NCBI GenBank assembly: GCA_001657315.1
Contig: LYSV01000039.1
Span: 1 to 64,000, forward strand
Length of the DNA: 64,000 nt
Source of the DNA: Flammeovirgaceae bacterium BBD 1991-12
Lineage (GTDB): Bacteria; Bacteroidota; Bacteroidia; Cytophagales; Cyclobacteriaceae
Direction: 5' to 3'
Shown here: positions 1 to 63,200 of the stretch, in pieces
How the letters are laid out: every line of letters starts with the position of its first letter
Position numbering within the stretch: position 1 is the first letter of the stretch
Notes under the pieces: model-generated
What the model saw: only the letters and a program-made list of their open reading frames with translations
What the model was told of the DNA's origin: nothing
Databases searched by the model: none
Made by a program: the position numbers and the translations under genes

Positions 1-2039
1 CTTTCCATACTACCCGGTATGGCAAGCTCTGTCAATTGATTATCCATAAAAGCCATTTGCCCGATACTGGTGACACTGGTAGGAATTTCAACATTGGTCA
101 GTTCTTTATTTTGGAAAGCACCTTCACCGATAGCGGTCACCGTGTAGGTGTCCTGGCCATGATCCACCGTTTCGGGAATGGTGACGGCTGTGGCCGTACC
201 GGTATAGTCCACCACCATTACCTCGGTTCGAGAGGTAATTCCGTATCTGATGTCATCAACGGTAAAGATCCCGAAGCTGATGGACCTGAACCCGTGCCAC
301 CCATTATCTAAATACTCTCGTTTCTTGCCAGTGGGCACTACAAGGTCTATTTGGTCACGGTAGGCATTTGAAAAGGCATGCTCATTAAGGGATGGGGGCT
401 CGATGGGCTTCACTGTCACCAGGCGAAGGTTCGGGTTGTTCTGAAAAGCAAACACATCTATATTCGTCACACTGTCAGATATGGTCACCTCTGTCAATTG
501 GTTGGAGGCATAGGTCGAGCTTCTAATCCTTTTCACATTGACCGGTGTGGTCACACTGGTCAATTGGTTCTGTGCAAAAGCATACTCCCCGATATCGGTC
601 ATGCTGTCGGGTATCTTAACGCTGGTCAATTGGTTGCCCCTGAAAGCAGCTCGCTTGATTCTGGTGACATTTTCGGGTATATCAACATTGGCCAGTTGCT
701 TGTTTTGGAAAGCATACTCCCCGATATAGGTCACAGCATCGGGTATGGCAACACTGGTGAATTGGTCGTTCCAAAATGCCTCTTTCTCAATAGACGTGAC
801 CGTATACGTCTTGTCAAGGTCGCTGTTTGGGAGGTAGTCGACTTCTGAGGGAATTTTCATGGTATCAACTCTAGGACCGCGATAGGCCAAGAGACTTACT
901 TCATTGGGGAGTACCGATCTGACGTCCCAAACGAAGCCATCATCCCGAAATATCCTCCCATAGTGCGAAAAGACATCCCTGAAACGTGTCCACCCTGCAT
1001 TTTTATACACTCGCTCCTTCAGCTCGGGCACTATCAGGTCTATATCGTTACGGTATGGATACTCAAAGGCAGCTGAATCGAGCGCCGGTGGCTCATCGGA
1101 CAGCATCATTATCCAGTCAATTTTCCGTACATAAAAGGCCTTTTCCCCAATACTTTTCACACTCTCCGGTATGATAACCGTTAGCAGGACGAGTTCTGTA
1201 GATACAAAAGCATTATCGCCTACTGCGGTCACAGGGTAGGTGTTTCCATCAATATCCACCTCTGAGGGAATGACTAAATCAGTGCCCACACCAACATGGG
1301 TAATCAACGTTGCTTGGTTTCGAGAGGTAGTAATTCCGTATTTAACTTTATCAACGGTAGTGATTCCGGAGGTGATGGTCCCGAACTCTGAGCCCGTCCA
1401 TCCTGCATCTTTATAAGCTTGGATAGTACCAAAGGGCACCACAAGATCCATTCCGCCACGGACAAATGAGCCTGCGCGTTCAAAGACTTTTTCATCAAGT
1501 GTTGTTGGCGGATTACGCTCAACCCTCACAATGGTAAGGGTCTGGTTGGCGTAAAATGCCTGGTACCCAATCTGTTCCACATTGGCCGGTATGGTCAGCT
1601 CCCTTAAATCGCATTGGGCAAAGGCCCACCTCCTGATATGGGTGACACTTTCCGGTATGATAACCTCTTCCAATGATGGGTTGCTGCCAAAGGCCCCCAG
1701 TCCGATAATGGTCACTGTGTTGGGTATGGTGACACGGGTAAGTCCCTTTTGGAAAAAAGGTCGAATAAGACCACCCTGAAAAGTATCGGTATTCTCACCA
1801 ATAGCGGTCACCGTATAGGTTTCGCCATCATGAAGGACCGTTCCGGGGATGTCCACCTCCGTGGCCGCACCCTCATAGACCACGATCATTACTTCAGGGG
1901 GAACGGTAGAGGTAATTTTGTATCTGATGTCATCAACGAGGAATTCGTCTCCTACGGCATTTTGACTATATCCAGTAAGGCTTGCCAATACCATAAAGAT
2001 GGAGGACAGTATCAGTTGTAATTGTTTTGGATTTTTCAT
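1..2039 (-). CDS. BspA-type leucine-rich repeat secreted protein, C-terminus outside window
   Basis: Partial gene: the minus-strand frame is open for 679 codons from an ATG at 2039 to the left edge, with no stop. The N-terminus is a Sec-type signal peptide (MKNPKQLQ, then a hydrophobic stretch ending GYSQ). The rest is mainly LRR_5/BspA repeats of about 23 residues with the pattern LTxVxIPxxVTxIGxxAFxxNQ. A second repeated module (DDIRYGITS ... TYTVTAIGE.AF) recurs at about residues 30, 210 and 560, and a third (DLVVP ... Y.DAGW) closes each LRR block. Such proteins are exported or surface-bound in Bacteroidota and may bind host, matrix or prey molecules; the ligand is unknown. A T9SS sorting domain may lie in the missing part. 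Family confidence is high, function is not established. Confidence 0.85.
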   Translation of the reverse strand, partial: MKNPKQLQLILSSIFMVLASLTGYSQNAVGDEFLVDDIRYKITSTVPPEVMIVVYEGAATEVDIPGTVLHDGETYTVTAIGENTDTFQGGLIRPFFQKGLTRVTIPNTVTIIGLGAFGSNPSLEEVIIPESVTHIRRWAFAQCDLRELTIPANVEQIGYQAFYANQTLTIVRVERNPPTTLDEKVFERAGSFVRGGMDLVVPFGTIQAYKDAGWTGSEFGTITSGITTVDKVKYGITTSRNQATLITHVGVGTDLVIPSEVDIDGNTYPVTAVGDNAFVSTELVLLTVIIPESVKSIGEKAFYVRKIDWIMMLSDEPPALDSAAFEYPYRNDIDLIVPELKERVYKNAGWTRFRDVFSHYGRIFRDDGFVWDVRSVLPNEVSLLAYRGPRVDTMKIPSEVDYLPNSDLDKTYTVTSIEKEAFWNDQFTSVAIPDAVTYIGEYAFQNKQLANVDIPENVTRIKRAAFRGNQLTSVKIPDSMTDIGEYAFAQNQLTSVTTPVNVKRIRSSTYASNQLTEVTISDSVTNIDVFAFQNNPNLRLVTVKPIEPPSLNEHAFSNAYRDQIDLVVPTGKKREYLDNGWHGFRSISFGIFTVDDIRYGITSRTEVMVVDYTGTATAVTIPETVDHGQDTYTVTAIGEGAFQNKELTNVEIPTSVTSIGQMAFMDNQLTELAIPGSME

Positions 2040-2638: not shown

Positions 2639-4897
2639 ATGCCTGATCAAGAATTAAAATTTACGGTTGATAGTGCACTTCTGAGAGAATTAGGTGAAAA
2701 ACTGGTGGAAACAGTTCATTTAGCCCTTTCCGAGCTAGTCAAAAATTCTTATGATGCTGATGCTACAGAAGTTGAAGTAATTTTTGAAACCGCAGAGAAC
2801 GGGAAAAGTCGAATTAAAATCATTGACAATGGTGTAGGAATGAATTTCAAAGCTGTGGAGCGGTATTGGATGCGCATTGCCACTAACAATAAAGAAAGAA
2901 AAGATGTATCTATAATTTATGGCAGACATCTAACAGGCGCAAAGGGAATTGGAAGATTTTCTTGTAGAAGATTAGGATCTAAATTAACTCTAATAACAAA
3001 AGGTACCAAAGAAGGTAAACAGGTTGGGAAACAGTCTGATATAGAATATACTAAAGTACATTTTCCATGGATGAGTTTTGAAGCAGGAACTGACGTTACT
3101 ACCATTTCATGTCCAGGAACTCAAAAGAAGATTAAGGAAGGAGAATTTACAGGCACAACACTTATCATCGATGATGCCACTGACGAATGGAGCCACAGAT
3201 CATTTAGTGTGTTGAAACGTCAATTGGCAGTCTTATCTGCAAATAGAGGCGTTTCTAGGGAAGGACATAAAACTGATCCTGGCTTTATGATACTAATGGA
3301 AGCACCTGATTTTGAGGGAGGAGTAAGGGATATAAGAGAAGATATGATGAATGCAGGTTGGGGTACGTTAAAAGCATTTATCAATGATAAGAAAAAAGCA
3401 GTCTGCGAACTTGATGCGTTAGGATTAGGTAGAAGAACTTGGGTTTCAAATTCCACCTTTGAAAATCTGAATGATGTAAAATTGGAGGTTGGGATTATGA
3501 TTGACAAATCAAGTCAACTAAGAGATAAAAGCGTTCTTTCACTAGGTGCTCTAAATGAAATTCTTCCTAAGTGGGGTGGAGTTCAGGTGAGATATAGGGG
3601 ATTTCGTGTTGCCCCTTATGGAGATGATGATTGGTTGGAAATAGATTATGATCGAGGTAGAAGGTTACTAAAACCAGAAGATGAACTCATGGCTTTTGCT
3701 GAGTCATTACATGGAATAAACAGTAAAAGGGCACTTCTCAGTATGCCTGGAATGCGAAATTACGTTGGTGCTGTCGATATAGGACCCAAAGCAAAAGGAT
3801 TTGAAATGAAAGCTGGGCGAGAAGGATTTCTCGATTCTCCATCGACAAGACAGTTGAAAGAATTTGCAAGAATTGCCATCGACTGGTCAGTGGTTTTAAG
3901 AGAATATTATTTAAGGCAAGAAGATCAGCGAATGGCCTTGATAGCAAAAGAGGAGTTTGAGGATGTCGTTGATGAAAAAGTTGACACTCCTCTTTTGGTA
4001 AATCGAGCATTGGAATATATAGAGAATGAGATTCATGTAGTTTCCAGAAACCTAGAACCGGAGGTTCGAGAAAAAGTTGAAGTAAACTTAACAAAGGCAA
4101 CAGAAGCGATTCGTAAACAAAGTGATTCGCAGAAATCCGAGTTATCGCATTTAAGACTGATTGCCTCGACATCCACACTATTGCTAATATTTTCTCATGA
4201 GGTAAAGTCGCTGTTAGGGATGCTAGAGGAGAGTAAAAATTCATTGGAAGGTGTTGCTAAGTCTTTGGAGGGAAATGAGAAGGAAGAGGTATTAAGAGTA
4301 GCGAATAACTTCAAAGAGTTGAACATTAGATTGACTGAACTACTCCAACTTACTTCATTGCTAGGATCGGATAAATCGAGAGCAAAACCAGGTAGAGTGG
4401 CACTTAAATCAAAACTTAAGAAAGTTGAAAAAGTCTTCGAATTGATTACTTCAAAATATAATATCAATATTGATTACTCAGGAGTTCCTAACAATGTAGT
4501 TGTCAAAAAATATCTGGAGGCAGAGGTTTATTCAATTCTCCTAAACCTCATATCAAACTCAATTAAAGCGGTAATAGCTGGTGGAAAACGAAAGGAAATA
4601 CAGATTGATGCCAGCTCTAGTAATGGAGTAGCAAGTATTACTATCAGAGATTCAGGAATAGGGTTAAGTCCAGAGAAATTTAAGGAAGTATTTGCACCTT
4701 TTATTGCTGACCCAGAAGGAAAATTATATATCAATCTTGAAGAGCAGTTGAATCCGGAGGATAATATGATAGTTGGAACAGGATCGGGATTGGGACTAGG
4801 TATTGTTAGAGAAATTGTGCGTGCGCATGGAGGAAATATCTCTTTTATAAAACCACAAAATGGATGGTCAACTGAGCTCGAATTACAATTACAATAA
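2639..4897 (+). CDS. Dual-GHKL protein: MORC/Hsp90-like ATPase fused to histidine-kinase-like module
   Basis: A predicted cytoplasmic protein of 752 aa with two GHKL ATP-binding domains. The N-terminal one (about residues 1-140) has an N-box (ELVKNSYDA), G1 (DNGVGM) and G2 (GAKGIGRFS), resembling HATPase_c_3 of MutL, MORC and Hsp90-like proteins. After a long middle region and a charged, probably coiled-coil stretch comes a histidine-kinase-like module with an H-box-like FSHEVKSLLGML (His520), N-box (LLNLISNSIKA), G1 (RDSGIGL) and G2 (GTGSGLGLGIV). There is no signal peptide or membrane segment. The start at 2639 is chosen over 2501 because the GHKL fold begins there. It leads a six-gene cluster, with the receiver-like gene 5 nt downstream. 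Inference: a sensor or switch ATPase of a defence system, possibly signalling by phosphotransfer. It is much more AT-rich than core genes nearby. Confidence 0.8.
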   Translation: MPDQELKFTVDSALLRELGEKLVETVHLALSELVKNSYDADATEVEVIFETAENGKSRIKIIDNGVGMNFKAVERYWMRIATNNKERKDVSIIYGRHLTGAKGIGRFSCRRLGSKLTLITKGTKEGKQVGKQSDIEYTKVHFPWMSFEAGTDVTTISCPGTQKKIKEGEFTGTTLIIDDATDEWSHRSFSVLKRQLAVLSANRGVSREGHKTDPGFMILMEAPDFEGGVRDIREDMMNAGWGTLKAFINDKKKAVCELDALGLGRRTWVSNSTFENLNDVKLEVGIMIDKSSQLRDKSVLSLGALNEILPKWGGVQVRYRGFRVAPYGDDDWLEIDYDRGRRLLKPEDELMAFAESLHGINSKRALLSMPGMRNYVGAVDIGPKAKGFEMKAGREGFLDSPSTRQLKEFARIAIDWSVVLREYYLRQEDQRMALIAKEEFEDVVDEKVDTPLLVNRALEYIENEIHVVSRNLEPEVREKVEVNLTKATEAIRKQSDSQKSELSHLRLIASTSTLLLIFSHEVKSLLGMLEESKNSLEGVAKSLEGNEKEEVLRVANNFKELNIRLTELLQLTSLLGSDKSRAKPGRVALKSKLKKVEKVFELITSKYNINIDYSGVPNNVVVKKYLEAEVYSILLNLISNSIKAVIAGGKRKEIQIDASSSNGVASITIRDSGIGLSPEKFKEVFAPFIADPEGKLYINLEEQLNPEDNMIVGTGSGLGLGIVREIVRAHGGNISFIKPQNGWSTELELQLQ

Positions 4898-4902
4898 AAG
4901 CT

Positions 4903-5886
4903 ATGGAGTTTATCTGGATAGACGATGATAATGGAAGACGCGAAACTGCATCCAATATGGAAAAAGCACTAGGAGTAAGTATACAGTTTGAAAGTGTAAA
5001 TGGAAAAGAAATTGATATCGAGCTGACAAGAATACTTCATGATAATGAGGAACCAGATTTAGTTGTTATGGATCATGTACTAAATCTAGCAGCCGATTCT
5101 GATACAATTCGAAGAGGATCGACAGCTGCTACGCGCATAAAAGAGAAGTGGTCGGAATGTCCCGTTGTTTCGGTAACTGCTGCTATCAATAATCAAGCTG
5201 AAGAAATCGATACTCGTCAAGAAGATGCTTATGAAAATATGTTTCCATGGGATCATATTTCCGATTATTATGAGACAATTAAAAGCATTGCCGAAGGATT
5301 TAAACATCTGAAAGATAATAGGCCTCAAGTTCCAGAGGATTTGCCTGACAAATTGAATTGTCCTGAAATTGAAAGAGAAAGATTAATGAAAATTCTGCCG
5401 AATAAAATTAAAGTCAAAAAAAACTTTAATGACAGAAGTCTTTTAATTGAAGTATACAAATGGCTCAATACAGTTCTTTTTAGAAGGCCAGGTTTTTTGT
5501 ATGATGAACTTTGGGCGGCAACATATTTAGGTCTTACACTAGAAGGATTTAAAACAGTCATGAAGGAGTTTGAAGGAGCAAAATATACAGGAGCTTTTCA
5601 AGACACCTCGCAACCCAAGTGGTGGAAAAGTTCACTTAAAGAAATCCTAGTAGAAAAATTTGAGGAGACTGGTATGCCATGGGTGATGGGTAGAAAACTG
5701 GTTAAAAATGAAAAATATTACTCAAAGGATTATGCAAAAGGAGAGGATTACCCTGAAACAGTTGCAGCAGAAGATGATACCATTCCTCCAATATGGCAAC
5801 CAATGAAATTGAAACATACTGAACCACATCCTAGCTTCGAGAATTTACTATTTTTTGAAGAATTACGAATTATGAAACCTGATTGA
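4903..5886 (+). CDS. Receiver-like protein with unknown C-terminal domain
   Basis: 327 aa, starting 5 nt after the dual-GHKL gene. Residues 1-130 look like a divergent response-regulator receiver: an acidic cluster after strand 1 (IDDD, residues 6-9), a candidate phosphoacceptor Asp57 in DLVVMDHVLN, and a PVVSVTAA strand where the conserved Ser/Thr normally lies. The conserved Lys of the usual receiver is not evident. The C-terminal 200 residues match no family I know and show no recognisable helix-turn-helix, so a transcription-factor role is unsupported. Adjacency to a protein with an H-box suggests a dedicated phosphorelay partner (inference). A structure prediction would settle whether the N-terminus is a true CheY fold. 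Confidence 0.6.
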   Translation: MEFIWIDDDNGRRETASNMEKALGVSIQFESVNGKEIDIELTRILHDNEEPDLVVMDHVLNLAADSDTIRRGSTAATRIKEKWSECPVVSVTAAINNQAEEIDTRQEDAYENMFPWDHISDYYETIKSIAEGFKHLKDNRPQVPEDLPDKLNCPEIERERLMKILPNKIKVKKNFNDRSLLIEVYKWLNTVLFRRPGFLYDELWAATYLGLTLEGFKTVMKEFEGAKYTGAFQDTSQPKWWKSSLKEILVEKFEETGMPWVMGRKLVKNEKYYSKDYAKGEDYPETVAAEDDTIPPIWQPMKLKHTEPHPSFENLLFFEELRIMKPD

Positions 5887-5889
5887 TTT

Positions 5890-6606
5890 ATGAGTATTCA
5901 TCAAGGACATCTTCAGTATTCAGAGTTCGTTAAGAACGAAATATATACTTTGAATGTATTAAGTGGCTTTACTTTTCTGGCGCAGAATTTTGGTGAGTTA
6001 TATACAGAGGTATATGAGCATCATAGCACCTATTACACATTAGCAAAGAAAAACCTTATTGAAGATAGACCATTTAAATTTGGTACACATTTCGATTTAA
6101 AAATTGACAAGACTATCCATAGATTTACAATAGAGTGCCAAATTCTTCCTAACTTCTCAATTGCAACTTATGTCCTTGGAATTTTTAATGATAACAGAGA
6201 GGAAAACCCTCAAGTAATAAGAAAATTTCATTTTGATTATGCAGTTCCCCAAGAAGGACAAGAACCAAAGCCTGTATATCATTTACAATATGGGGGTGAA
6301 CCAACTCCGAAAATCCAATATGGCGACAAAGAAAATGAAACATTAAATCCGTGGTTATCGAACCCAAGAATCTCTTATATGCCTATGAGTCTTGCTCTCC
6401 TTTTGGATTATGTTTTTTTTGAATTAAAAGAACAAAATGAATCTGCCAACGGTATAATTGAAAGAAATGAATGGCGAAAACTAATCAAGCATAATGAAGA
6501 GAGAATTCTGAAACCATACTTTAGTAAGGTCAACGAATTTCTTTATGGTAACAAACACAGACCCGAATTTCTCTTAAGAGATTTTTACTATGGACAGCAA
6601 GCTTGA
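5890..6606 (+). CDS. Uncharacterised protein of the putative defence cluster
   Basis: 238 aa, not recognised. No signal peptide or transmembrane segment is apparent. Notable features are a central YHLQYGGEP motif (about residue 132), a following LSNPRISYMPMSLALLLD segment with a hydrophobic helix, and a charged C-terminus. It starts 3 nt after the receiver-like gene, and its last 17 nt overlap the methyltransferase start, so it is surely co-transcribed and probably translationally coupled. Base composition matches the rest of the block. Its job may be structural or target-sensing within a complex, but nothing in the sequence shows a catalytic site. Confidence 0.6.
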   Translation: MSIHQGHLQYSEFVKNEIYTLNVLSGFTFLAQNFGELYTEVYEHHSTYYTLAKKNLIEDRPFKFGTHFDLKIDKTIHRFTIECQILPNFSIATYVLGIFNDNREENPQVIRKFHFDYAVPQEGQEPKPVYHLQYGGEPTPKIQYGDKENETLNPWLSNPRISYMPMSLALLLDYVFFELKEQNESANGIIERNEWRKLIKHNEERILKPYFSKVNEFLYGNKHRPEFLLRDFYYGQQA

Positions 6607-8146
6607 GGATCATCTTAAAAGAAGAAATGGGATTTATTATACTCCTGAAAAACTTGCTAAATACTTAGCAGAACCACTTATTAGCAGCACTATAAAGAGT
6701 GTTTTTGATCCAGCGTATGGTGAAGGTGCTTTATTATTGGCAGCAGAGTCAATTTTCAAAGAGAAGTTTGAAACAAAAGTAACGCTTGAGCTTTTTGGAA
6801 GTGACATTCATCCAGTTAATGGACTACTTAGTCATTTACCAGAAGCTAACCTTAAACAGCAGGATTTTTTCAATCTTGAGAATGACTTAAAATTTGATGT
6901 CATTCTAAGCAACCCACCATACGTTCGACATCAGAGTCAATCGAGAGAGTTAATTAAGGAATATCGTGAAAGATTACATGATCTACAATTTTTAAGCAAT
7001 TCATCCGACTTGTGGACTTATTTTTTGGTAAAATCTGTATCTCACTTAAAATCGGGAGGTTCAATGGGATTAATAATACCGTGGGCCTTCTTGCAAGCAG
7101 ATTATGCAAGAGATATTCGTACCTGGCTAATAGACAAGTTTGAGAACATTAAAGTTCTTGCCTTAAACCATCCGTATTTTGAGGAAGAATCAGCGCAAGA
7201 GAGAGTAGTTATCTTATGGTTATCAAATAAAGATTATACAACAGAAAGAATTGAATTTGCTTTTGCCAGAGATATTGAAAGCAACATCTCGTATCGAGAG
7301 TTACAAAGAACCGAATGGAATTCAAATAAAGTTGTTGGGGTCAACAATGACCTTGATTCCATTTTTTCTCGGATTTCAAATGAGTTGAGGTTTAGTAAAT
7401 TCGAGTCTTTGGCTGATACACGAATTGGTGTTGTTACTGGAGCTAATTCTTTCTTCATTCGAAAAGAAGAAGAATTGACCCAGCTCGGTTTTGACCCAAA
7501 CCAACTTTTACCAATTGTTACCTCAGCAAAGGAACTTCCTGATCTTATCACTAATGGTGATTTAAACCTGAAGAGGCTTGTACTTATTTCAGAAGTTGAT
7601 CGTAATCAATTTTCAGAATTTATTGATAAAGGGGAAGAATTAGGATTTGACCAAAGGTCTCATTCAAAAATGAGAAAATCTTGGTTTTCAATTGATCCTA
7701 GAAGAACTCCAGATGCATTTTTCCCTTATCGAGTTGGCCAAATACCATATTTAGTATTAAATACTCATCAAATTCAAAGTACCAATTCTGTTCACAGAAT
7801 CTATTTCAAAGAAGGATTAGGAGAGAGCGCAATAAAATGGATAGTTGTATCGATGCTGTCGATTTATGGTCAATTGTCAATGGAAGCAAATGCCAAAACA
7901 TACGGTCGTGGAATGCTGAAAATGGAACCAGGAGCATTAGGTAAAGTTTTGGTTTTTAAAGATGATGATGATCGGATTAACGACGTGTATGAACTCGTAA
8001 TTAATGCTCTTGGGAGAGAAGAGAAAGATAATGCTCTAGAAATTGCAACGAATTTCATCGATGATTTTTTACAAATACCTGAAGACCTTAGGTTGATGAC
8101 ATCTCAAGCCCTTGATAATATCAAAATGACAAGGAAAAGGCAATGA
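6590..8146 (+). CDS. Gamma-class N6-adenine DNA methyltransferase (Eco57I/TaqI-like)
   Basis: 518 aa. The N-terminal half carries the motifs of gamma-type N6-adenine methyltransferases in order: motif X (GIYYTPEKLAKYLAE, residues 14-28), SAM-binding motif I (FDPAYGEGALLL, 39-50), an acidic GSDIHP segment and catalytic motif IV NPPY (108-111, followed by VRHQ). The C-terminal half (from RIGVVTGANSFFI) resembles the target-recognition region of Eco57I/XamI-type enzymes. Expected reaction: SAM-dependent methylation of adenine N6 in a short DNA site. There is no nuclease domain in the chain, so restriction, if any, must come from a partner such as the PD-(D/E)XK protein two genes downstream. It overlaps the upstream gene by 17 nt and the downstream gene by 4 nt. 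Confidence in the enzyme class is high; the site is unknown. Confidence 0.88.
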   Translation: MDSKLEDHLKRRNGIYYTPEKLAKYLAEPLISSTIKSVFDPAYGEGALLLAAESIFKEKFETKVTLELFGSDIHPVNGLLSHLPEANLKQQDFFNLENDLKFDVILSNPPYVRHQSQSRELIKEYRERLHDLQFLSNSSDLWTYFLVKSVSHLKSGGSMGLIIPWAFLQADYARDIRTWLIDKFENIKVLALNHPYFEEESAQERVVILWLSNKDYTTERIEFAFARDIESNISYRELQRTEWNSNKVVGVNNDLDSIFSRISNELRFSKFESLADTRIGVVTGANSFFIRKEEELTQLGFDPNQLLPIVTSAKELPDLITNGDLNLKRLVLISEVDRNQFSEFIDKGEELGFDQRSHSKMRKSWFSIDPRRTPDAFFPYRVGQIPYLVLNTHQIQSTNSVHRIYFKEGLGESAIKWIVVSMLSIYGQLSMEANAKTYGRGMLKMEPGALGKVLVFKDDDDRINDVYELVINALGREEKDNALEIATNFIDDFLQIPEDLRLMTSQALDNIKMTRKRQ

Positions 8147-8625
8147 ATCAATGGTCTCAACTGCGCCCACTTTCCAAGCTAGATCAACTAGCGGAGACCG
8201 TCATGAAAACCACATTCTTACTTTCTGAAAACCATCATGTTATCCAAAGCTACTTAAATCACAAAGGCGCACATTTTAAAGTCGTAAATCGAGTAGGGGG
8301 TGCCTTCGCTAAAGCTTCAGCACCTGAAAAAGAGGTTGATATCTTATGTCGCCAGATCAATATAGAGAAAACCAACTATGCATTTATTCCCAAAAATGAT
8401 CTGGAAAGAGGTCTTAGAGACAATCTTTGGATTGGTTTGGTTCTGTTTGTTGATGGTCAGAAACCAACCAAGTATCTGTTTCCAAGTACAGTTTGGAATG
8501 AGCCGAATCGGCTATTTACAGATTCTGCAGTCAAGAATCCTGAGTATGGAATCAATTTGAACCAGCATACGATGAAAGATTTCGTTGAGAAGTATGCTTT
8601 TGAAAAGAAAGTCAATGACTTATAA
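8143..8625 (+). CDS. Small uncharacterised protein between methyltransferase and nuclease
   Basis: 160 aa, not recognised. The ATG overlaps the methyltransferase stop by 4 nt, so expression is coupled. No signal peptide is present. The middle (KEVDILCRQINIEK ... YAFI) could be a reduced alpha/beta nuclease-like core but lacks a clear D-ExK pair, so this is weak. The C-terminus has a FPSTVW ... PEYGINLN block that looks conserved in style. Possible roles are an endonuclease subunit, a specificity factor or an inhibitor; the sequence does not decide. Confidence 0.55.
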   Translation: MNQWSQLRPLSKLDQLAETVMKTTFLLSENHHVIQSYLNHKGAHFKVVNRVGGAFAKASAPEKEVDILCRQINIEKTNYAFIPKNDLERGLRDNLWIGLVLFVDGQKPTKYLFPSTVWNEPNRLFTDSAVKNPEYGINLNQHTMKDFVEKYAFEKKVNDL

Positions 8626-9583
8626 GCAAAGAAAATATTTGCTTGATCTGGCGCGGAAAAAGGGATATCAGGAAGAGTCTGAGCAGATTGATTTCTTGAA
8701 GAAATATTTCTATGGGAACTTCGACTACTATGAAGAAAAGATTTGCAATCAGGTTAATGACAAAGACAAAAAATATTGGAGGTTAAAAGAGCAAGAAAGA
8801 ATATCTGAGGTTATTTCAATATTAAAAGCTGAAAGTCAATCTAAAACTAGAGAACGAATTAATACAAGTACTCTAATCTCAGCCTCGGAAATAGCAAATT
8901 TTCAATTTTGTCCTGTAAGTTTTAGTATTCAAAGAACTTATGAAGTAGAGAGTAATGTAAAAATGGAAATGGGTTCCTTCATTCACGATACAGTCAATAT
9001 GAAAGACGGAGACTTTAGCCGTAATGGCAAAACTCTCCTAATGAATAAGATTAAGGAACTACCAAAACTGTATAAAAACAGAATCAATTACAGCGGTCAT
9101 TTAAATGGATCCAAAACCTTTATTAACACCGAACTGAATATTTCATGTAAACCCGACTATATAATATCAGATAATAATACTGGTGAGAAATTCATTATAG
9201 AAGAAAAGTATTCAACTAAGGCACTTCAAACAGCTATCTACCTGAATCAAAAAATCCAATTAATAGCGTACTTGCTGACTATTCCAGATGTTGAGTATGG
9301 ATATGTGATTACATGGAGATATTACTCTGGTGAACGAAATGAGTTAAAGCTTATTCTTGCAAATGATGATAAGAGCATTGATAATTTTCTTATTTCAAAG
9401 TATGATAAAGAACTTGAAAATCAACTAAAATCATTACTTATTGAAATTAGAAGCCTGATTTCGGAGGGAGAAATGATTAAAAGGATTAAATACTCTTCGG
9501 CCAAATGTTCTAAATGCTCAGTAAGTCAATATTGCAGACATAAGAAAACCAAAGAACAAAAACTGACTTTCCCCTACATGTAA
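8615..9583 (+). CDS. Cas4/RecB-like PD-(D/E)XK nuclease with four-cysteine cluster
   Basis: 322 aa from the ATG at 8615, overlapping the previous gene by 11 nt; an upstream ATG at 8585 would make the overlap much longer and add no recognisable domain. The sequence follows the Cas4/RecB layout: Cys99 in NFQFCP, His124 in GSFIHD, Asp181 in CKPDY, E-x-K (EEKYS, residues 196-200), the QxxxY helix (QLIAY, 215-219) and a C-terminal C-x2-C-x5-C (Cys298, 301, 307). Together these predict a nuclease core with a 4Fe-4S cluster. About 85 N-terminal residues precede it and are unassigned. No other cas genes or CRISPR arrays are in the window, so a CRISPR-adaptation role is unlikely. It is the probable effector or DNA-processing nuclease of the cluster. 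Confidence 0.82.
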   Translation: MTYKQRKYLLDLARKKGYQEESEQIDFLKKYFYGNFDYYEEKICNQVNDKDKKYWRLKEQERISEVISILKAESQSKTRERINTSTLISASEIANFQFCPVSFSIQRTYEVESNVKMEMGSFIHDTVNMKDGDFSRNGKTLLMNKIKELPKLYKNRINYSGHLNGSKTFINTELNISCKPDYIISDNNTGEKFIIEEKYSTKALQTAIYLNQKIQLIAYLLTIPDVEYGYVITWRYYSGERNELKLILANDDKSIDNFLISKYDKELENQLKSLLIEIRSLISEGEMIKRIKYSSAKCSKCSVSQYCRHKKTKEQKLTFPYM

Positions 9584-10736: not shown

Positions 10737-11759
10737 CTACAGAGGCTGTAGTTCAGCTGTTTTACTTCTCTTCTTCAGCCACCAGTCCAGCCTCGTCTCT
10801 GGTTTGTAATTGGTAACCTTCGGTTTTGACTCAGCCCTTTCAATTTTTAACGTATTCAGCTCAGCTACCACCGACCAGATCGTACCGAATTGTTCTTTTT
10901 TCAGGTCCAGGCATACGCATTTATCGGAAAGAACAGCTTTAGCCCTGTCCAGATCCATCTGCCTCAAAGACTGCAGATGCTCCCTCAAGCCATTGTACCT
11001 GTCCACGCTCTTACTCCACTCCACACCGCCTCTGTCAAACCGGACCATTTCTCTGGTCATGAATTGGTTGGTGATAAAAATAAAATCTTCATCTCTCTCC
11101 GGCCTTCTTACCGTGCTCGCCTGAGGAGCCGACTCAACTACGGCCAGTTCACCTGTTGGGTCTGCGATCAGAAAATTGTTGGCTGCTGAAACCTTCGTTT
11201 TCAGGATCACATCCACCGCCTGCTGAGCAGAGCTACAGTTTTCCAGCACCTTTCTTACCATAAAATGAAAACCTATACCGGGTTGTATTTCCGTGCCATT
11301 GACAAATGACATGGCTATGAACAGGCCTTTTTCATTGATCCCATCCGAGCGGCCGATAAAAACATCGGACTGGCTGATATAGGCATATTTGTCCTTCGGG
11401 GCAATTAAACTGCTCTCGGTGAATTTCCTGAATGCAAACAACATGTCGTAGTTTCTTCCGGCTATCACGGACTCCTTGTTTCTGAAAGCAAATACACTGC
11501 ATTGGGCAGTGGATCCATCGACACCCAGGCTCATCAGGAATGCCCCCAGATTTTCCGGTTTCTCCTTGATCCCTTTGGCAAAGCCTTCGATTTCTTCCAC
11601 CAGCTCGGGATAGAAATCGGGTAGTTGCGCATAGGAGGCAAGCCCGAACTCCCTCTTTTCCTCGCTTATTTTCGGCAAGGTAAAACCATTCTTTGCAAGG
11701 AGTGAACCATACGTAAGGCCCATTTCAAAAAACTCTCCATATAGTCTGGGGTGATACAT
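10737..11759 (-). CDS. C45-type (acyl-CoA:6-APA acyltransferase-like) Ntn hydrolase
   Basis: 340 aa. The sequence follows peptidase family C45: a predicted autoprocessing nucleophile Cys87 in TAQCSVFAF, followed by AGRNYDMLF, then SDGINEKGLFIAMS and a NNFLIADPTGELAVVE strand. In this Ntn-hydrolase family the chain cleaves itself before the Cys, and the enzyme hydrolyses or transfers amide-linked acyl groups. The substrate cannot be told. No signal peptide is visible, which suggests a cytoplasmic location. A TATATTTG -7 element lies 27 nt upstream of the start. Confidence 0.8.
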   Translation of the reverse strand: MYHPRLYGEFFEMGLTYGSLLAKNGFTLPKISEEKREFGLASYAQLPDFYPELVEEIEGFAKGIKEKPENLGAFLMSLGVDGSTAQCSVFAFRNKESVIAGRNYDMLFAFRKFTESSLIAPKDKYAYISQSDVFIGRSDGINEKGLFIAMSFVNGTEIQPGIGFHFMVRKVLENCSSAQQAVDVILKTKVSAANNFLIADPTGELAVVESAPQASTVRRPERDEDFIFITNQFMTREMVRFDRGGVEWSKSVDRYNGLREHLQSLRQMDLDRAKAVLSDKCVCLDLKKEQFGTIWSVVAELNTLKIERAESKPKVTNYKPETRLDWWLKKRSKTAELQPL

Positions 11760-50738: not shown

Positions 50739-51061
50739 TGTATCGGGGAGATTGCGCTTACAACATAGTATTTTGTAGAATGTTGAGGCTAAGATAATTG
50801 ATTGAAGTCATATAGAGATAGGGCAAAGACCTTAATGACTGGAAGCACGTGGTGGATACTACAATTCGTGTTGGCCTCCTTTTCCTTACGCTATCTTACT
50901 CCCTCCGGTAAGTCTGGCGGCCCCTTCCCTGGTCTTAGGTTTAGCGAAGTGATCCTGAGACCCCAACAAAGAAGTATTTGATGGGCCGGGAAGAAATCGT
51001 GAGCTTATCCTGTTCAATTAAAGCAATAGTTAAGACATGGACTAAATGGACGATTCTTGTG
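50739..51061. other. Intergenic stretch with a single REP half-unit
   Basis: 323 bases without a gene. At 50932-50965 it contains CTGGTCTTAGGTTTAGCGAA ... GATCCTGAGACCCC, the left-end core of the REP unit seen at 49412 and 52229, with two substitutions. The rest shows nothing recognisable. Confidence 0.55.
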
Positions 51062-51556
51062 TTAATTTTCAAGCCTCAGAACACTCTCCAATTTGCGTTC
51101 CATAGTGTTAAATTTACGATACAGTAAATAGGTTCCCAACCCGGGAAACATAGCCAACCAGACTATTGTAGCAAAAAGCTGATCAGTATTCCATGTGGCT
51201 ATAGTCGCCGCTATCATCATTATAGTTGCAAGATAAATGGCAGAGAACATCATAAAGGTGTGCCATCCGGGTTTCATGTTTACAATAATTTTCGTACTTC
51301 CATGCTCTCTTGATATTCTTCCTTTAAGAATTACCTGTAAGGGTATAATTCTGAAAAATTTTGGTGGTTCAGTCAGGTCAAATCTTAAACTATTTTTGTT
51401 TAGTACTCCAATCCATACTTTGTTCGTGGAGATTGGGTTGCTGATAGACAGATAGCTTGCCAGGTTGTTTACACGTTCAGTCGTCCAGGTAAGGCGGGAG
51501 AAGACTTTTTCCGGATGGTCTTCAACTTCGTATGCTATGGACCTAAGATTAACCAA
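51062..51556 (-). CDS. Small membrane protein, unknown
   Basis: 164 aa, starting at TTG (51556): an in-frame stop lies 18-21 nt upstream and no ATG precedes the conserved-looking N-terminus. The N-terminal half is soluble; two hydrophobic helices (MMFSAIYLATIMMIAATIA and LFATIVWLAMFPGLGTYLL) follow about residue 100, then a short basic tail. Family not recognised. It ends 36 nt before the small XRE gene on the same strand and is downstream of it, so the two may be co-transcribed. Confidence 0.55.
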   Translation of the reverse strand: MVNLRSIAYEVEDHPEKVFSRLTWTTERVNNLASYLSISNPISTNKVWIGVLNKNSLRFDLTEPPKFFRIIPLQVILKGRISREHGSTKIIVNMKPGWHTFMMFSAIYLATIMMIAATIATWNTDQLFATIVWLAMFPGLGTYLLYRKFNTMERKLESVLRLEN

Positions 51557-51591
51557 AGGGAGGAGATTTATTTAAGCAGTGATCTTTGAGG

Positions 51592-51801
51592 CTATTTCTT
51601 TGTAGAGATTAAAAGCTCCCGCACATCTACATCCAATACCTTTGCTATATGGAATAAGGTCTCCACCCTTGGCTGCATTTCATTTCTGCACCATTTGGAC
51701 ACCGTAGTACGATTCATTTCCAATTCATCCGCCAGCCAATTGTTGGTCCTTCCTTTTTCAGCCAAAACGGCTTTTACCCGGTTGTATATCTGCTTTTCCA
51801 T
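51592..51801 (-). CDS. XRE-family helix-turn-helix regulator
   Basis: 69 aa, just a single HTH_3/Cro domain: YNRVKAVLAEKGRTNNWLADELEMNRTTVSKWCRNEMQPRVETLFHIAKVLDVDVRELL. The recognition helix is NRTTVSKWCRN. It is transcribed away from the 66-aa gene at 51968, with a region of dyad symmetry between them, a layout typical of a self-regulated repressor and its target. Confidence 0.88.
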   Translation of the reverse strand: MEKQIYNRVKAVLAEKGRTNNWLADELEMNRTTVSKWCRNEMQPRVETLFHIAKVLDVDVRELLISTKK

Positions 51802-51857
51802 AATGGAATTCTATAGTCAGAACTAAGTTAATCACTTCAATTTAATCACTTTTCGCA

Positions 51858-51928
51858 TTATTTTATGCTTTATAGTATTCAAATAGATATTTTTTATATC
51901 TTTGTTATGCTTAAAAAGCATAAAATAA
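51858..51928. promoter_or_regulatory. Operator-like dyads and -7 element between the divergent XRE and 66-aa genes
   Basis: TTATTTTATGCTT (51858-51870) recurs as its exact complement AAGCATAAAATAA (51916-51928). Additionally TTATGCTT (51905-51912) and AAGCATAA (51916-51923) form a perfect 8-bp dyad with a 3-nt spacer. A TATCTTTG (TAnnTTTG) -7 element at 51897-51904 directly abuts the inner dyad, so a bound regulator would cover the predicted start of transcription toward the 66-aa gene. The XRE protein is the obvious candidate ligand. Confidence 0.65.
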
Positions 51929-51967
51929 GCCGATAAAAGTTTTCTTTGAATATCAAAAGACAAAATT

Positions 51968-52168
51968 ATGAAAAAAAGATACACCAAAGCCGACCTGGAG
52001 AAAATCGTTTACACCCAACTCGAAAACCTGGACGCTATGCATGACCTGTTGAAGATCATGAAAGTCCAGAATGACTTGCTGGAGCGTATGAATAAACGGT
52101 TGAGTTTTGAGATGAGCGAAGTGAATGATACGACAGTGAAGTATTCGCAGGGGAGGAGGAAGGGGTGA
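51968..52168 (+). CDS. 66-aa helical protein under the operator-like dyads
   Basis: 66 aa, MKKRYTKADLEKIVYTQLENLDAM then a helical, charged stretch (HDLLKIMKVQNDLLERMNKRLSFEM) and a basic tail. A heptad-like pattern of Leu/Met suggests a coiled coil. Not recognised as any family. It is transcribed divergently from the XRE gene, and the AAGCATAA dyad lies in its leader, so the XRE protein probably represses it. A toxin-antitoxin-like pair is possible but there is no toxin fold to see. Confidence 0.6.
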   Translation: MKKRYTKADLEKIVYTQLENLDAMHDLLKIMKVQNDLLERMNKRLSFEMSEVNDTTVKYSQGRRKG

Positions 52169-58258: not shown

Positions 58259-59392
58259 TTGATTTTGGTTTTAACGATCCATTTGTCAAGTATCGTTGCT
58301 GAACTATGTAAAGGGTATCCTTACGACGTATTCATCGCACATGCCGTGGAAGATAAGGCGGAAGTAACAAACGAGCTCTATACCAGGCTAAAGGAAGCGG
58401 GGATCAAAGTGTGGTATTCTGGTGAAAAGCTGCAGGTGGGAGGGGATCTTTATCAAATGATCAAAGATGGTTTGAACAAATCCCGTCACGGTATTCTGAT
58501 CCTGTCCCCTAATTTTTTTAGGGGAAGCTGGCCCGTAAGAGAGTTTCATGTGCTCTGGGGTAAAAAAAATGCCCGTATATTACCGGTTTGGCATAATATC
58601 ACCAAAGAAGAGATTGAGCGGCACGATAAGTTGCTGGCCGAATTCTGGGCAGTGAATACTGATGTAGGAATGGACCGTGTGGTACAGGTCCTTATCCGTG
58701 CCCTTAAGGAGCCCAAAAGAAAGCAGAGATGGGGTATGATGATCGGTTTCTTCTTTATGTTCCTGTTAGCAGCCGCTGGACTGTGGTATTTACCAGACGG
58801 GGATACGCCACCCGGAGATCTTGTCAGAGCTACTATTGAACAACGGATATCAACTCTCCAGAAACAAGTCCTGATCACTCATACGGAAGTAATGCAGGAA
58901 GAAGGAGCAACAGCTGCTACCATTTCAGAGATCAAGAGCCTTCATAACCAGTATGAAGGTATTGAATCTTACTATCGGAACAGGTATACTGTGACGACCG
59001 GTAAAGCCGAAATACACTTCAGGAAAAACGTTGAGCCGACGCTGAAGTTGGATTTCAATTCGTTTTCTCTGCACAATGCTTATGGGTTTGACATGCCAAA
59101 TACCTTTAAGATCGATCACAGCCTGGGGAAAGCGCTCGATGTGAAATACATTTTCCTCAATACCCAGCCTGTCAGTTATCACCAGGATGACCCCGATGAA
59201 CTAACGGAAGGTGAGTGCCAAATCCCTGTTGCTTATGAAAACTACATACGCTATTTAACAGTTAGCCTGCAATACACCAAAAACACCGACTGGATGAAGC
59301 GCCGGTCATTTGAATTCATGGCTTTATTGCCTGTGGAAATCTATCGGTTTGAAAAGGTGGGTGATGACTGGGTGTTCAAAGGAGTAGATTAG
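58259..59392 (+). CDS. TIR-domain protein with a transmembrane segment and unknown C-terminal domain
   Basis: 377 aa. The start is a TTG at 58259, 5 nt after the LytTR stop; no ATG is available before the domain, though TTG codons at 58265 and 58283 are alternatives. TIR domain at residues 18-150: YDVFIAHAVEDKAEVTNELYTRL, GIKVWYSGEKLQVGGDL, SRHGILILSPNFFRGSWPVREFHVLW; the Glu in REFHVL occupies the usual catalytic position of TIR NADases. A transmembrane helix (about residues 163-181) is followed by a 195-residue polar domain of unknown family. Bacterial TIR proteins cleave NAD+ or make nucleotide signals in antiphage defence. Membrane attachment and its place in a two-component operon are unusual for such effectors. 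Confidence 0.85.
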   Translation: MILVLTIHLSSIVAELCKGYPYDVFIAHAVEDKAEVTNELYTRLKEAGIKVWYSGEKLQVGGDLYQMIKDGLNKSRHGILILSPNFFRGSWPVREFHVLWGKKNARILPVWHNITKEEIERHDKLLAEFWAVNTDVGMDRVVQVLIRALKEPKRKQRWGMMIGFFFMFLLAAAGLWYLPDGDTPPGDLVRATIEQRISTLQKQVLITHTEVMQEEGATAATISEIKSLHNQYEGIESYYRNRYTVTTGKAEIHFRKNVEPTLKLDFNSFSLHNAYGFDMPNTFKIDHSLGKALDVKYIFLNTQPVSYHQDDPDELTEGECQIPVAYENYIRYLTVSLQYTKNTDWMKRRSFEFMALLPVEIYRFEKVGDDWVFKGVD

Positions 59393-59468
59393 CATTCCAT
59401 TCACAAAGCTTTTTGGTTGTTCAGAAACTTTAATCCTGACCTCAAGGCATCAATACTTTCATGTTAAA

Positions 59469-60008
59469 ATGAGAATTATGAAACATACACAAGTTTTTTT
59501 ACTCCTTTTGTCAATGTTTATGAATACTTCGTCAATGGCTCAACAAGCTAATAGTCAAAGTAATATTGAAAAGTTTTCATCAAATTCTGGAACACTGATC
59601 GAAAAAGAATTCATTCCTGTTGGATCGGTGAATAAAGAAATTAAAATTCAAGTTATACTTGTCTCTGATCTGATTTCTACCCAACGTGTTTCAGGGATTC
59701 AAGTGGAATACAAAAGCAAGTATTCTACAAACAGTACAAGTACTTTCCTGGATAAAGATGAAATCAATGCTTTCATCAATGCCTTGGGCATTATCAAAGA
59801 TCAGATAATTGTGAATTCCCCTAAGAATTATAAGGAAGTCATATTTTCAAGCCGTAGTGGTTTCCGGACAGGTTGCTATTGGGATAAAGGTAAATGGGTG
59901 TCTTTTATTCAAGTAAATAAAAGAGATTCAAAAAGCTATGCTTTTATCACTATAGAGGAATTAACTCAATTATCAGATCAATTAATAAAAGCCAGTAAAA
60001 AGTTATGA
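59469..60008 (+). CDS. Secreted protein, unknown
   Basis: 179 aa with signal peptide (HTQVFLLLLSMFMNTSSMA-Q). The start could be the ATG at 59469 or at 59478. The remaining domain is alpha/beta with repeated strands (IKIQVILVSDLIST, GIQVEYKSKYST, VIFSSRSGFRTGCYWDKGKWVSFIQV) and no recognised family. It ends 4 nt inside the next gene, so the two are co-expressed. AT-rich relative to the TIR operon upstream. Confidence 0.6.
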   Translation: MRIMKHTQVFLLLLSMFMNTSSMAQQANSQSNIEKFSSNSGTLIEKEFIPVGSVNKEIKIQVILVSDLISTQRVSGIQVEYKSKYSTNSTSTFLDKDEINAFINALGIIKDQIIVNSPKNYKEVIFSSRSGFRTGCYWDKGKWVSFIQVNKRDSKSYAFITIEELTQLSDQLIKASKKL

Positions 60009-62776: not shown

Positions 62777-63016
62777 ATGCCTTGTAGAGTAGGAATTACA
62801 ACCAATCCAACAGAACGCAGAGCGTATTGGGAACGTCAGGTAATTGGCCTGAGTAATTGGAGAATTTTAGCCACCTATCCGTCAAAACAGGAGGCTCAAG
62901 CCCATGAAAATCGCTATGCGGCATCCTCCGGCTGTCAGGCTCACGCCGGAGGACCAGACATATCTGGAACATGGAGTGTGTATAGGTTTGATTATACAAG
63001 GATGAAGCGAAGTTAG
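62777..63016 (+). CDS. Small protein resembling a trimmed GIY-YIG domain
   Basis: 79 aa: MPCRVGITTNPTERRAYWERQ, then WRILATYPSKQEAQAHENRYA and a C-terminal Gly-rich and aromatic segment (HAGGPDISGTWSVYRFDY). The GITTNPTERR ... W pattern recalls the second half of a GIY-YIG nuclease core, with a Glu (HENRYA) in the helix, but the GIY half is missing. I know of similar short hypothetical proteins; activity is uncertain. It has no signal peptide, unlike its upstream neighbours. Confidence 0.5.
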   Translation: MPCRVGITTNPTERRAYWERQVIGLSNWRILATYPSKQEAQAHENRYAASSGCQAHAGGPDISGTWSVYRFDYTRMKRS

Positions 63017-63200
63017 TGTTTGATGATACACATACCTCTTTAAATAAAAATAACAATTTATTGATAGTAACTTGGTTAGTTCTCGCTCATTTGTACTTGG
63101 AGGCATAAAAGTCTTACGCCAATCCGTGATGAGCTTTTTATTTGAATTGATTTAAATGACCTCACATAATCAACCGGATTTAAAGAACCTGTTCATAAAA

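Follow-up and report, generated by a model that had tools for sequence, protein, structure and literature searches.

Gene content and layout of the cluster

Six plus-strand open reading frames lie end to end at positions 2639-9583 of the window, that is, the whole stretch of 64,000 nucleotides analyzed here (Table 1). The junctions from P1 to P6 are, in order, gaps of 5 and 3 nt and overlaps of 17, 4, and 11 nt, with ATG 8615 taken as the start of P6; alternative starts are ATG 8594 and TTG 8585, with the end at 9583. Because the genes abut or overlap, they are probably co-transcribed here. The promoter scan gave 23 predictions against 25.3 in shuffled sequences, and the terminator scan gave 8, some of them overlapping, against 4.6. 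No flanking repeats were found in the stretches searched (1.9-2.8 and 9.4-10.3 kb). G+C content is 0.32-0.39 per gene versus 0.457 in the remainder of the window. The preliminary description of an AT-rich cluster of six co-directional, abutting genes was thus borne out, and its resemblance to a restriction-modification (R-M) or defence locus was supported.

Table 1. Coordinates of the genes and of the predicted functional sites in the window
Feature	Position	Strand	Length or remark
P1, dual-GHKL protein, core gene 1	2639-4897	+	752 aa
P1 HATPase_c_3/MutL-like N-terminal ATPase	residues ~5-197		
P1 C-terminal histidine kinase core	residues ~498-752		
P1 H-box His520	4196-4198	+	
P2, response-regulator-like, core gene 2	4903-5886	+	327 aa
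P2 receiver, putative phospho-acceptor Asp57	5071-5073	+	
P3, unnamed family, core gene 3	5890-6606	+	238 aa
P4, N6-adenine DNA methyltransferase, core gene 4	6590-8146	+	518 aa
P5, accessory protein, outside conserved core	8143-8625	+	160 aa
P6, Cas4/RecB-like PD-(D/E)XK nuclease, accessory, outside conserved core	8615-9583	+	ORF open from 8585

The individual gene assignments of that description also held. In P1, Pfam recognized both HATPase_c_3 (E 5e-28) and HATPase_c (E 2e-23), and the expected H-box was located at His520; residues 7-197 match the N-terminal part of the BbrUII/HgiDII-type model NF050001 (E 8e-21), although the score of 74 bits is far below the 550-bit cut-off. As expected of a kinase with a phospho-accepting His and an intact ATP-binding CA domain, P1 has His520, Asn636, Asn640, and Asp671. 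Across 82 aligned kinase rows, His520, Asn636, and Asn640 are each conserved in 81, Asp671 in 75 (Asn in 6, a gap in 1), and nine residues of the N-terminal ATPase are invariant, while Gly673/Gly675 differ in 6-7 rows. Given the variation at Asp671 and Gly673/Gly675, some relatives may not be active kinases. The receiver of P2 was weak by Pfam (E 0.011), and its fold model adopts the receiver fold, with best Foldseek matches at E of about 1e-5. Asp8 and Asp57 are invariant in all 65 aligned receivers; at position 92, 52 receivers have Ser/Thr, 12 have Asn, and 1 has Ala. P1 and P2 are a candidate two-component pair with predicted phosphotransfer, and the proposed signalling front of ATPase and receiver was supported.

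P4 matches N6_Mtase (Pfam, E 1e-19), contains FDPAYGEG and NPPY motifs, and has a type II methyltransferase as its best PADLOC model (E 2e-69), consistent with the N6-adenine methyltransferase first recognized. P6 is likewise confirmed as Cas4/RecB-like by PDDEXK_1 (Pfam, E 7e-8) and Cas4 models (E 2e-11). Its sequence has an EEK motif as well as cysteines in the C-terminal part; it matches Cas4 and Cas4-fused Cas1g models, and P1, P2, P3, and P5 match no cas model. The two proteins described as unfamiliar, P3 and P5, matched no family above cut-off. The P3 family bears the motif HxD ... PxxH ... PR; no Pfam match was obtained at E<=0.01 among 44 members, PDB profiles gave nothing below E 0.5, and the P3 fold gave nothing at E<=0.001 against PDB and viral folds, so that P3 as a known nuclease was rejected.

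Recurrence of genes 1-4 and exchange of the modification partner

To describe how these genes recur, 84 loci were compared: the window, L012, L022, L023, and 80 loci representing the best of a scan seeded by two N-terminal motifs, which is not a random sample. The order GHKL-REC-P3-MTase was observed in 31 of the 84 loci (window included), MTase-GHKL-REC-P3 in 7, and Ssp genes with GHKL-REC-P3 in 4. The receiver adjoins the kinase in 78 of the 81 loci in which that gene is visible, and methyltransferase matches fell at offset -1 or +3 in 57/61 cases over offsets -8 to +8. A P2 profile, built from receivers found through the same motif-seeded scan, yielded six full-length matches in 199 genomes of one family, including L035, already in the set; GHKL, P3, and N6-methyltransferase genes adjoin all six, with the methyltransferase on the opposite strand in L141. 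This comparison showed the conservation of the four-gene unit together with its kinase, receiver, and methyltransferase motifs, and on these sequences genes 1-4 are a widespread, unnamed bacterial unit whose members are currently annotated as, e.g., sensor histidine kinase or hypothetical protein.

The preliminary description had instead treated all six genes as one block and one system, with the Cas4-like P6 as a methylation-guided effector. P6 does retain nuclease motifs and the genes abut and overlap in the window, probably as one transcript. However, no P5 or P6 relatives were detected at E<=0.01 at the 83 other GHKL loci (ORFs of at least 70 aa; some contigs incomplete), P6 relatives occur in 2 of 295 other genomes sampled from the phylum and not beside the trio within 18-kb stretches, and P5 relatives are found elsewhere; one, an interrupted copy, follows a type I hsdM in the genome of the window. 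Among 27 four-gene loci in which the gene after the methyltransferase is visible, only the window and L055 have that gene on the same strand and no more than 50 bp away. The neighborhood comparison of the six families therefore left genes 1-4 as the conserved block, and the six-gene system was rejected as very unlikely on the loci examined; a general effector role of P6 is unlikely. P5 and P6 have been added to the operon in this genome, probably to serve as an auxiliary arm of DNA degradation.

The spread of the unit is patchy, with a full-length P2 match in 2 of 296 sampled phylum genomes (that of the window and one other). One block sits on a plasmid; plasmid searches with the receivers of three relatives all reached one same Hymenobacter plasmid, and nothing useful came from plasmid tblastn with P2, P3, and P6, from viral contigs searched with P2 and P5, or from phages searched with the receiver of one relative. 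GHKL ATPases of the MORC/MutL type have DNA as their substrate during repair and silencing, and the N-terminal ATPase of P1 resembles MutL, so a MutL/MORC-like role in DNA maintenance or as an epigenetic switch, rather than in defence, might be envisaged. The patchy spread, the plasmid-borne block, and the repeated changes of partner described below speak against such a role, which we consider extremely improbable. Silencing is mentioned for MORC-type ATPases in the available text of PMC8011034.

Near the GHKL-REC-P3 trio in L042, L053, L054, and L079, Ssp phosphorothioation genes replace the methyltransferase. SspC and SspD are present in all four and SspB in three (the contig of L079 starts inside SspC), and PADLOC names SspA-D in L042. 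The Ssp-linked kinases group in a single clade (SH-aLRT 99) that falls among those linked to methyltransferases, and the partner labels on the kinase tree require 12 changes. Within the sequences compared, the modification partner of the trio was thus shown to be exchanged between methylation and phosphorothioation. No SspE model was matched among 20 scanned proteins of these four loci; L042 additionally encodes PbeA/PbeC-like genes, which could restrict. An independent hint comes from PMC12421847, which describes Ssp lacking an accompanying SspE in Acinetobacter baumannii; the Ssp region there includes a two-component histidine kinase and also contains restriction endonuclease genes.

The third protein varies as well: P3B or, in another branch, a metallo-beta-lactamase (MBL)-fold protein stands at the P3 position. 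P3 and P3B as one family were rejected (hhalign probability 1.1, not significant), with an H-x-Q motif nevertheless aligned; in the absence of significant kinship, the shared "effector slot" rests on position. Eight loci of the cyanobacterial MBL branch, including two on short contigs, have no methyltransferase in their vicinity. For a 525-aa protein of L099, a REC-MBL fusion was considered and also rejected, as its MBL part covers residues 200-524 and the receiver profiles did not match the 200 residues at its start.

A putative phosphorelay between recognition and execution

On balance, we consider it somewhat more likely than not that the core is a four-gene R-M system in which a two-component phosphorelay joins recognition to execution. 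P4 would methylate adenines in the host's own DNA, as expected from its family, and thereby mark it as self. P1, as a soluble dimer, could probe DNA with its N-terminal GHKL ATPase clamp, which is akin to HgiDII/BbrUII-type enzymes and MutL. Upon meeting unmarked DNA, the C-terminal kinase of P1, whose motifs are observed, would phosphorylate His520, from which the phosphate may pass to Asp57 in the receiver of P2. P2 would then activate P3, a proposed effector or transducer and the likely executor, judging from its position and from the MBL-fold protein that occupies the corresponding place in a different branch. The kinase, receiver, and P3 would accordingly constitute the restriction arm of an R-M system run by a His-Asp phosphorelay.

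The same components could be read as a regulator, in which the kinase-receiver pair senses stress or the state of DNA and controls the methyltransferase or neighboring genes without restriction of its own. A regulator role has been suggested for related HEF_HK/Response_reg_2 pairs in the available text of PMC8011034. No nuclease is recognized in the core, and the C-terminal domain of P2, for which no known match was found, could be that of a DNA-binding transcription factor. However, P2 relatives matched no DNA-binding family in Pfam and the PDB profile matches of P2 span only the receiver part; the trio is kept together while modification shifts from methylation to phosphorothioation, and P3 is left without an explanation. 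We therefore regard the regulator as unlikely. Less likely still is an abortive defence, in which the protein turned on by the relay (P3, P3B, or the MBL protein) would be a toxin that damages the cell and not a DNA-cutting enzyme. The lack of a recognized nuclease fold in P3 and the AbiE-type-looking toxin-antitoxin pairs (recognized by eye) directly upstream in four relatives are compatible with this scenario, whereas the tight linkage to DNA-modification genes, with exchange of partners, suggests that the target of sensing or attack is DNA.

Classical restriction enzymes perform recognition and cutting by direct contact. Under the four-gene R-M reading, some bacteria may distinguish foreign DNA from their own by means of a phosphate signal rather than through direct cutting. 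More tentatively, and with somewhat less than even expectation, the loci might represent a modular class of restriction in which a His-Asp phosphorelay uncouples the reading of self and non-self from the attack: a GHKL-clamp kinase reads, a receiver relays, and exchangeable modules supply the self-mark (adenine or cytosine methylation, or phosphorothioation) as well as the third component (P3, P3B, or MBL-fold). If true, a common signalling chain would be wired between the reading of a DNA mark and action, so that the attack could be amplified, delayed, or cancelled. Genes named sensor histidine kinase or hypothetical protein would acquire a function, and the trio would become a candidate for supplying restriction in Ssp loci that have no SspE.

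Relationship to known systems

No system model of PADLOC 2.0.0, NCBIfam, or Pfam covers the set, and PHROGs searched with P2, P3, P5, and P6 gave no system match. A type II R-M endonuclease was not apparent, with no recognized nuclease domain in P1-P4 and matches of P1 to REase models in its ATPase part only. MADS was rejected: mad2 was matched by the methyltransferase alone (E 5e-16), no mad model matched the other five proteins, and P4 scored 38 bits against NF047738 (cut-off 720). Detocs is a two-component-like anti-phage system using a His-Asp relay; to our knowledge, it has another sensor and effector and no DNA-modification enzyme. P1 departs from the BbrUII/HgiDII-type enzymes (NF050001) in its C-terminal half, which is a kinase. 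Ssp-type genes stand beside the trio in the four loci described above, but no Ssp model was among the matches listed for P1-P6 (for P4, the best 25 of 65), unlike SspABCD-SspE.

In VcSduA, a Shedu protein with a GHKL N-terminus, the GHKL ATPase domain is required for anti-phage activity, but the nuclease is fused in the same protein and neither receiver nor methyltransferase is described in the available text (PMC12137116). MORC and paraMORC proteins resemble P1 in having an N-terminal GHKL ATPase in R-M neighborhoods; paraMORC1-5 contain an S5 domain, some with nuclease, TIR, or other C-termini (Iyer 2008, PMC2292703), whereas the terms "receiver" and "two-component" occur 0 times in the text available for that article.

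The closest likeness is to the two-component-like HEF_HK (PF19191)/Response_reg_2 (PF19192) pairs tied to R-M (Bellieny-Rabelo 2021, PMC8011034). As far as its available text extends, these pairs share with P1 a soluble kinase with N-terminal HATPase_c_3, C-terminal HATPase_c, and a His followed by Glu/Asp, and share with the present loci an adjacent receiver-like gene with an invariant Asp, linkage to R-M, and paraMORC kinship. The order HATPase_c_3, DHp, and HATPase_c, with an adjacent receiver gene and nearby R-M genes, was indeed found here. Identity was nevertheless rejected by the models: PF19191 did not match P1 at E<=1 and gave one sub-threshold match among the kinases of seven relatives (L034; E 0.0011, 19.8 bits versus 24.1), while PF19192 did not match P2 at E<=1, any of 48 receivers at E<=0.01, or three receivers of other types. 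In the same available text, HEF_HK pairs are notable for their C5-cytosine methylases and Vsr, and the legend of the network has an N6/N4 methylase node; neither P3 nor the fixed order of the four genes nor the Ssp exchange is among the features given there, although a P3-like gene might be hidden in the unannotated neighbor groups (OG_8, 16, 20, and others). The earlier claim that no described system has this set thus stood for the system models of PADLOC 2.0.0 and NCBIfam but not for its signalling part: a GHKL kinase and receiver linked to R-M had already been published in 2021 (PMC8011034, in the text available), so the unit is not wholly undescribed.

Extent of the conserved unit

All six open reading frames reported on the plus strand of the window (bases 1-64000 of contig C20, from an 8.59-Mb parent genome in 282 contigs) were present, with neighbors abutting or overlapping and with the AT-rich composition previously ascribed to them. 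PADLOC, Pfam, and NCBIfam models identified the fourth protein (P4) as an N6-adenine methyltransferase and the sixth (P6) as a Cas4/RecB-like nuclease, both as proposed; H, D, EEK, and C-terminal cysteines are readable in the P6 sequence, and we take these to be the nuclease motif. The 160-aa P5 lacked a family, as the preliminary description had held. Its proposal of a six-gene block was not sustained, with P5 and P6 matching at E ≤ 0.01 in none of the other loci of our set. A same-strand gene within 50 bp after the methyltransferase was found in 2 of the 27 four-gene loci where a gene is visible 3′ of it, namely the window (P5) and L055 (87 aa), and within 50 bp upstream of the four-gene unit in 10 of 31 loci. 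Relatives of P6 occurred in two other genomes among the 296 searched, both in other settings, and a partial P5 relative stands alone on a phage-like plasmid of Acinetobacter; the window's genome itself carries two further interrupted P5-like copies. P5 and P6 have been added locally to a unit of GHKL kinase (P1), receiver (P2), 238-aa protein (P3), and methyltransferase.

Coordinates and sequence features of the loci discussed
Feature	Sequence	Position	Strand	Remarks
P1-P6 cluster	Window	2639-9583	+	G+C 0.32-0.39 per gene vs 0.457 in remaining window
P1 open reading frame	Window	Open from 2501	+	Homology with relatives starts about the ATG at 2639
AT-rich stretch	Window	51001-52000		G+C 0.37
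AT-rich stretch	Window	59001-60000		G+C 0.37
AT-rich stretch	Window	63001-64000		G+C 0.32
Genes just before the Ssp-trio locus	L042	2-4028		TnsB-like (E 1e-33), TnsC-like (E 2e-4), and PADLOC PDC-S04-matching genes
P6-like nuclease gene and neighbors	L109	6009-9547	-	8 bp to a 168-aa gene, then UvrD-like helicase gene (helicase by eye)
Interrupted P5-like copy	L146 (G000:C158)	11331-11705		84% identity; immediately follows a type I R-M hsdM gene; cut by contig end
Interrupted P5-like copy	G000:C49	13514-13894		65% identity

The P2 search of 296 genomes of the phylum returned three: the window's genome, G148 with a full-length relative, and G227 with a short match containing stops. G148 has relatives of P1-P4 in the same order, and none of P5 or P6 in the stretch read. 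Profile searches of 391 genomes of its class yielded seven genomes: G148, G640 with the same four genes, G695 with a methyltransferase ahead of kinase and receiver, and four with short matches. The sole addition from 291 genomes of the window's order was G519, of the same family as the window's genome, where kinase, receiver, and P3 (the trio) lie on a 310,967-bp contig inside a phosphorothioation locus. The trio is also borne by Chryseotalea sanaruensis contig NZ_BHXQ01000007.1, and Hymenobacter plasmid NZ_CP014303.1 (L149) shows the same order, annotated as sensor histidine kinase, hypothetical, hypothetical (P3 by position), and N-6 DNA methylase; a Piwi-domain protein and a large DNA methyltransferase are encoded near that block. 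The P2 profile served as a second bait in 199 genomes of the family to which the L035 Psychrobacter belongs (Moraxellaceae by record name), a bait not fully independent because the profile was built from receivers beside P1 relatives. At E ≤ 0.001, 55 genomes matched, 49 with short receiver matches only and 6 at full length (E < 1e-50), including L035, already in the locus set. In all six, kinase, P3, and N6-methyltransferase adjoin P2, the methyltransferase of L141 being on the opposite strand. By eye, related four-gene blocks in two genomes of one family (L137, L138) share flanking genes, which suggests an integration hotspot.

Kinase and receiver

The dual-GHKL reading of P1 was confirmed by Pfam (HATPase_c_3 N-terminal, HATPase_c C-terminal), and its PDB matches were MutL chains at the N-terminus and sensor histidine kinases at the C-terminus. 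The N-terminus also matched the PADLOC REase_II model and, far below the cut-off, the NCBIfam BbrUII/HgiDII models. Across 82 aligned kinases, Glu32, Asn36, Asp63, Gly65, Gly67, Gly100, Lys102, Gly103, and Gly105 were kept throughout, His520, Asn636, and Asn640 in 81 each, and Glu521, Asp671, Gly673, and Gly675 in 77, 75, 76, and 75, respectively. P2 matched Pfam Response_reg marginally (E 0.011); its receiver-like nature was upheld by the fold model (pLDDT 95), which opens with a receiver domain, and by Foldseek matches including RR468 and PorX (~1e-5). Its C-terminal half had no family match: among 48 receivers, Pfam gave only receiver models, one in 4 members and another in 2, plus a single stray match, and PDB profile matches were confined to the receiver part. 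All of 65 receivers carry Asp8 and Asp57, and 52 of them have Ser or Thr at position 92. Together, the kinase and receiver motifs support a putative His-Asp relay in working order.

Constant and exchanged partners

Gene order was counted around the kinase with iterative profiles in 84 loci, comprising the window, L012, L022, L023, and the best 80 of at least 517 relatives from a genome-wide scan with the P1 alignment, which used two N-terminal patterns; the sample is biased toward kinases near P1. Where visible (81 loci), position +1 held a receiver in 78, and by eye the genes there in L097 and L101, two of the remaining three, were receiver-like; position +2, also visible in 81, held P3 (45), a member of a second family termed P3B (10), or a metallo-beta-lactamase-fold (MBL) protein (13). 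With positions -8 to +8 as a built-in control, 57 of 61 methyltransferase matches fell at -1 (17) or +3 (40). Strict orders were GHKL-REC-P3-MTase (31), MTase-GHKL-REC-P3 (7), phosphorothioation (Ssp) genes with the trio (4), the trio with a methyltransferase on the opposite strand (L026, L104) or none (L052), GHKL-REC-P3B (10), GHKL-REC-MBL (13), and cut off or odd (6). A further 10 had kinase and receiver only, a count that overstates losses because weak P3 matches (L065, L090), a P3B match (L044), a P3 fragment (L031), a P3 match dropped in ORF selection (L033), and a similar H-x-Q motif by eye (L023, L040) were traced in them. Median junctions in the 31 loci were -11, -4, and -4 nt, upper values for overlap since each start was set at the first possible codon. 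In L067, L086, L071, and L081, gene pairs that by eye resemble AbiE-type antitoxin/nucleotidyltransferase toxin modules (~270+264 aa and 197+335 aa) abut the block immediately upstream of the kinase.

The fold of P3 was modeled confidently (pLDDT 87.7). It had no structural match at E ≤ 0.001 among PDB and viral folds, none of 44 members matched a Pfam family at E ≤ 0.01, and PDB profiles gave nothing below E 0.5. His131, Pro159, and Arg160 are invariant in these 44 proteins and His114, Asp116, and Pro128 nearly so; the 11 P3B proteins share invariant Arg121, Glu123, His142, His146, and Gln148. The two were not joined as one family by hhalign.

The modification partner varied. P3B loci held 8 of 11 C5-cytosine methyltransferase matches, two P3B loci being without any. 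Eight cyanobacterial operons (L063, L083, L084, L087, L088, L089, L092, L095) encode GHKL (~683 aa), receiver (~233 aa), and MBL-fold (~339 aa) proteins with no methyltransferase match nearby; six relatives from other phyla (L091, L093, L094, L098, L099, L102) have a methyltransferase directly ahead. Beside the trio in L042, PADLOC identified SspB (E 3e-109), SspC (E 0), SspD (E 2e-90), SspA (E 8e-147, the DndA model being nearly as good), PbeA (E 0), and a PbeC-like gene (E 2e-29), and the TnsB/TnsC-like genes ahead of this locus suggest that a Tn7-like element may carry it. Relatives of Ssp genes also occur in L053, L054, and L079, and a scan of 20 proteins across the four loci gave no match to a model of the restriction component SspE. 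On a tree of 77 kinases, the Ssp-linked ones formed one clade (SH-aLRT 99) within an otherwise methyltransferase-joined set, and partner labels changed 12 times vs 36.4 in shuffles; in this quick, midpoint-rooted LG+G4 tree with long branches, neither the deep branching nor which way the partners changed is certain.

Interpretation and relation to described systems

Kinase, receiver, and a third protein stay constant and the DNA mark varies, as would be expected if a restriction arm relied on a self-mark. This pattern and the relay motifs therefore favor a restriction system run by phosphorelay, which we consider somewhat probable. Of the main rivals, regulation of modification by the kinase-receiver pair seems rather unlikely, and abortive toxicity less likely still. 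In the open-licence PMC literature, so far as its text was accessible, we found no description of P3, the fixed four-gene order, or the Ssp exchange. The published HEF_HK/Response_reg_2 Pfam models do not match the present family, apart from one sub-threshold match. HEF_HK/Response_reg_2 pairs have been described as R-M-linked and akin to paraMORCs (PMC8011034), and the idea of coupling a two-component pair to R-M belongs to this earlier work.
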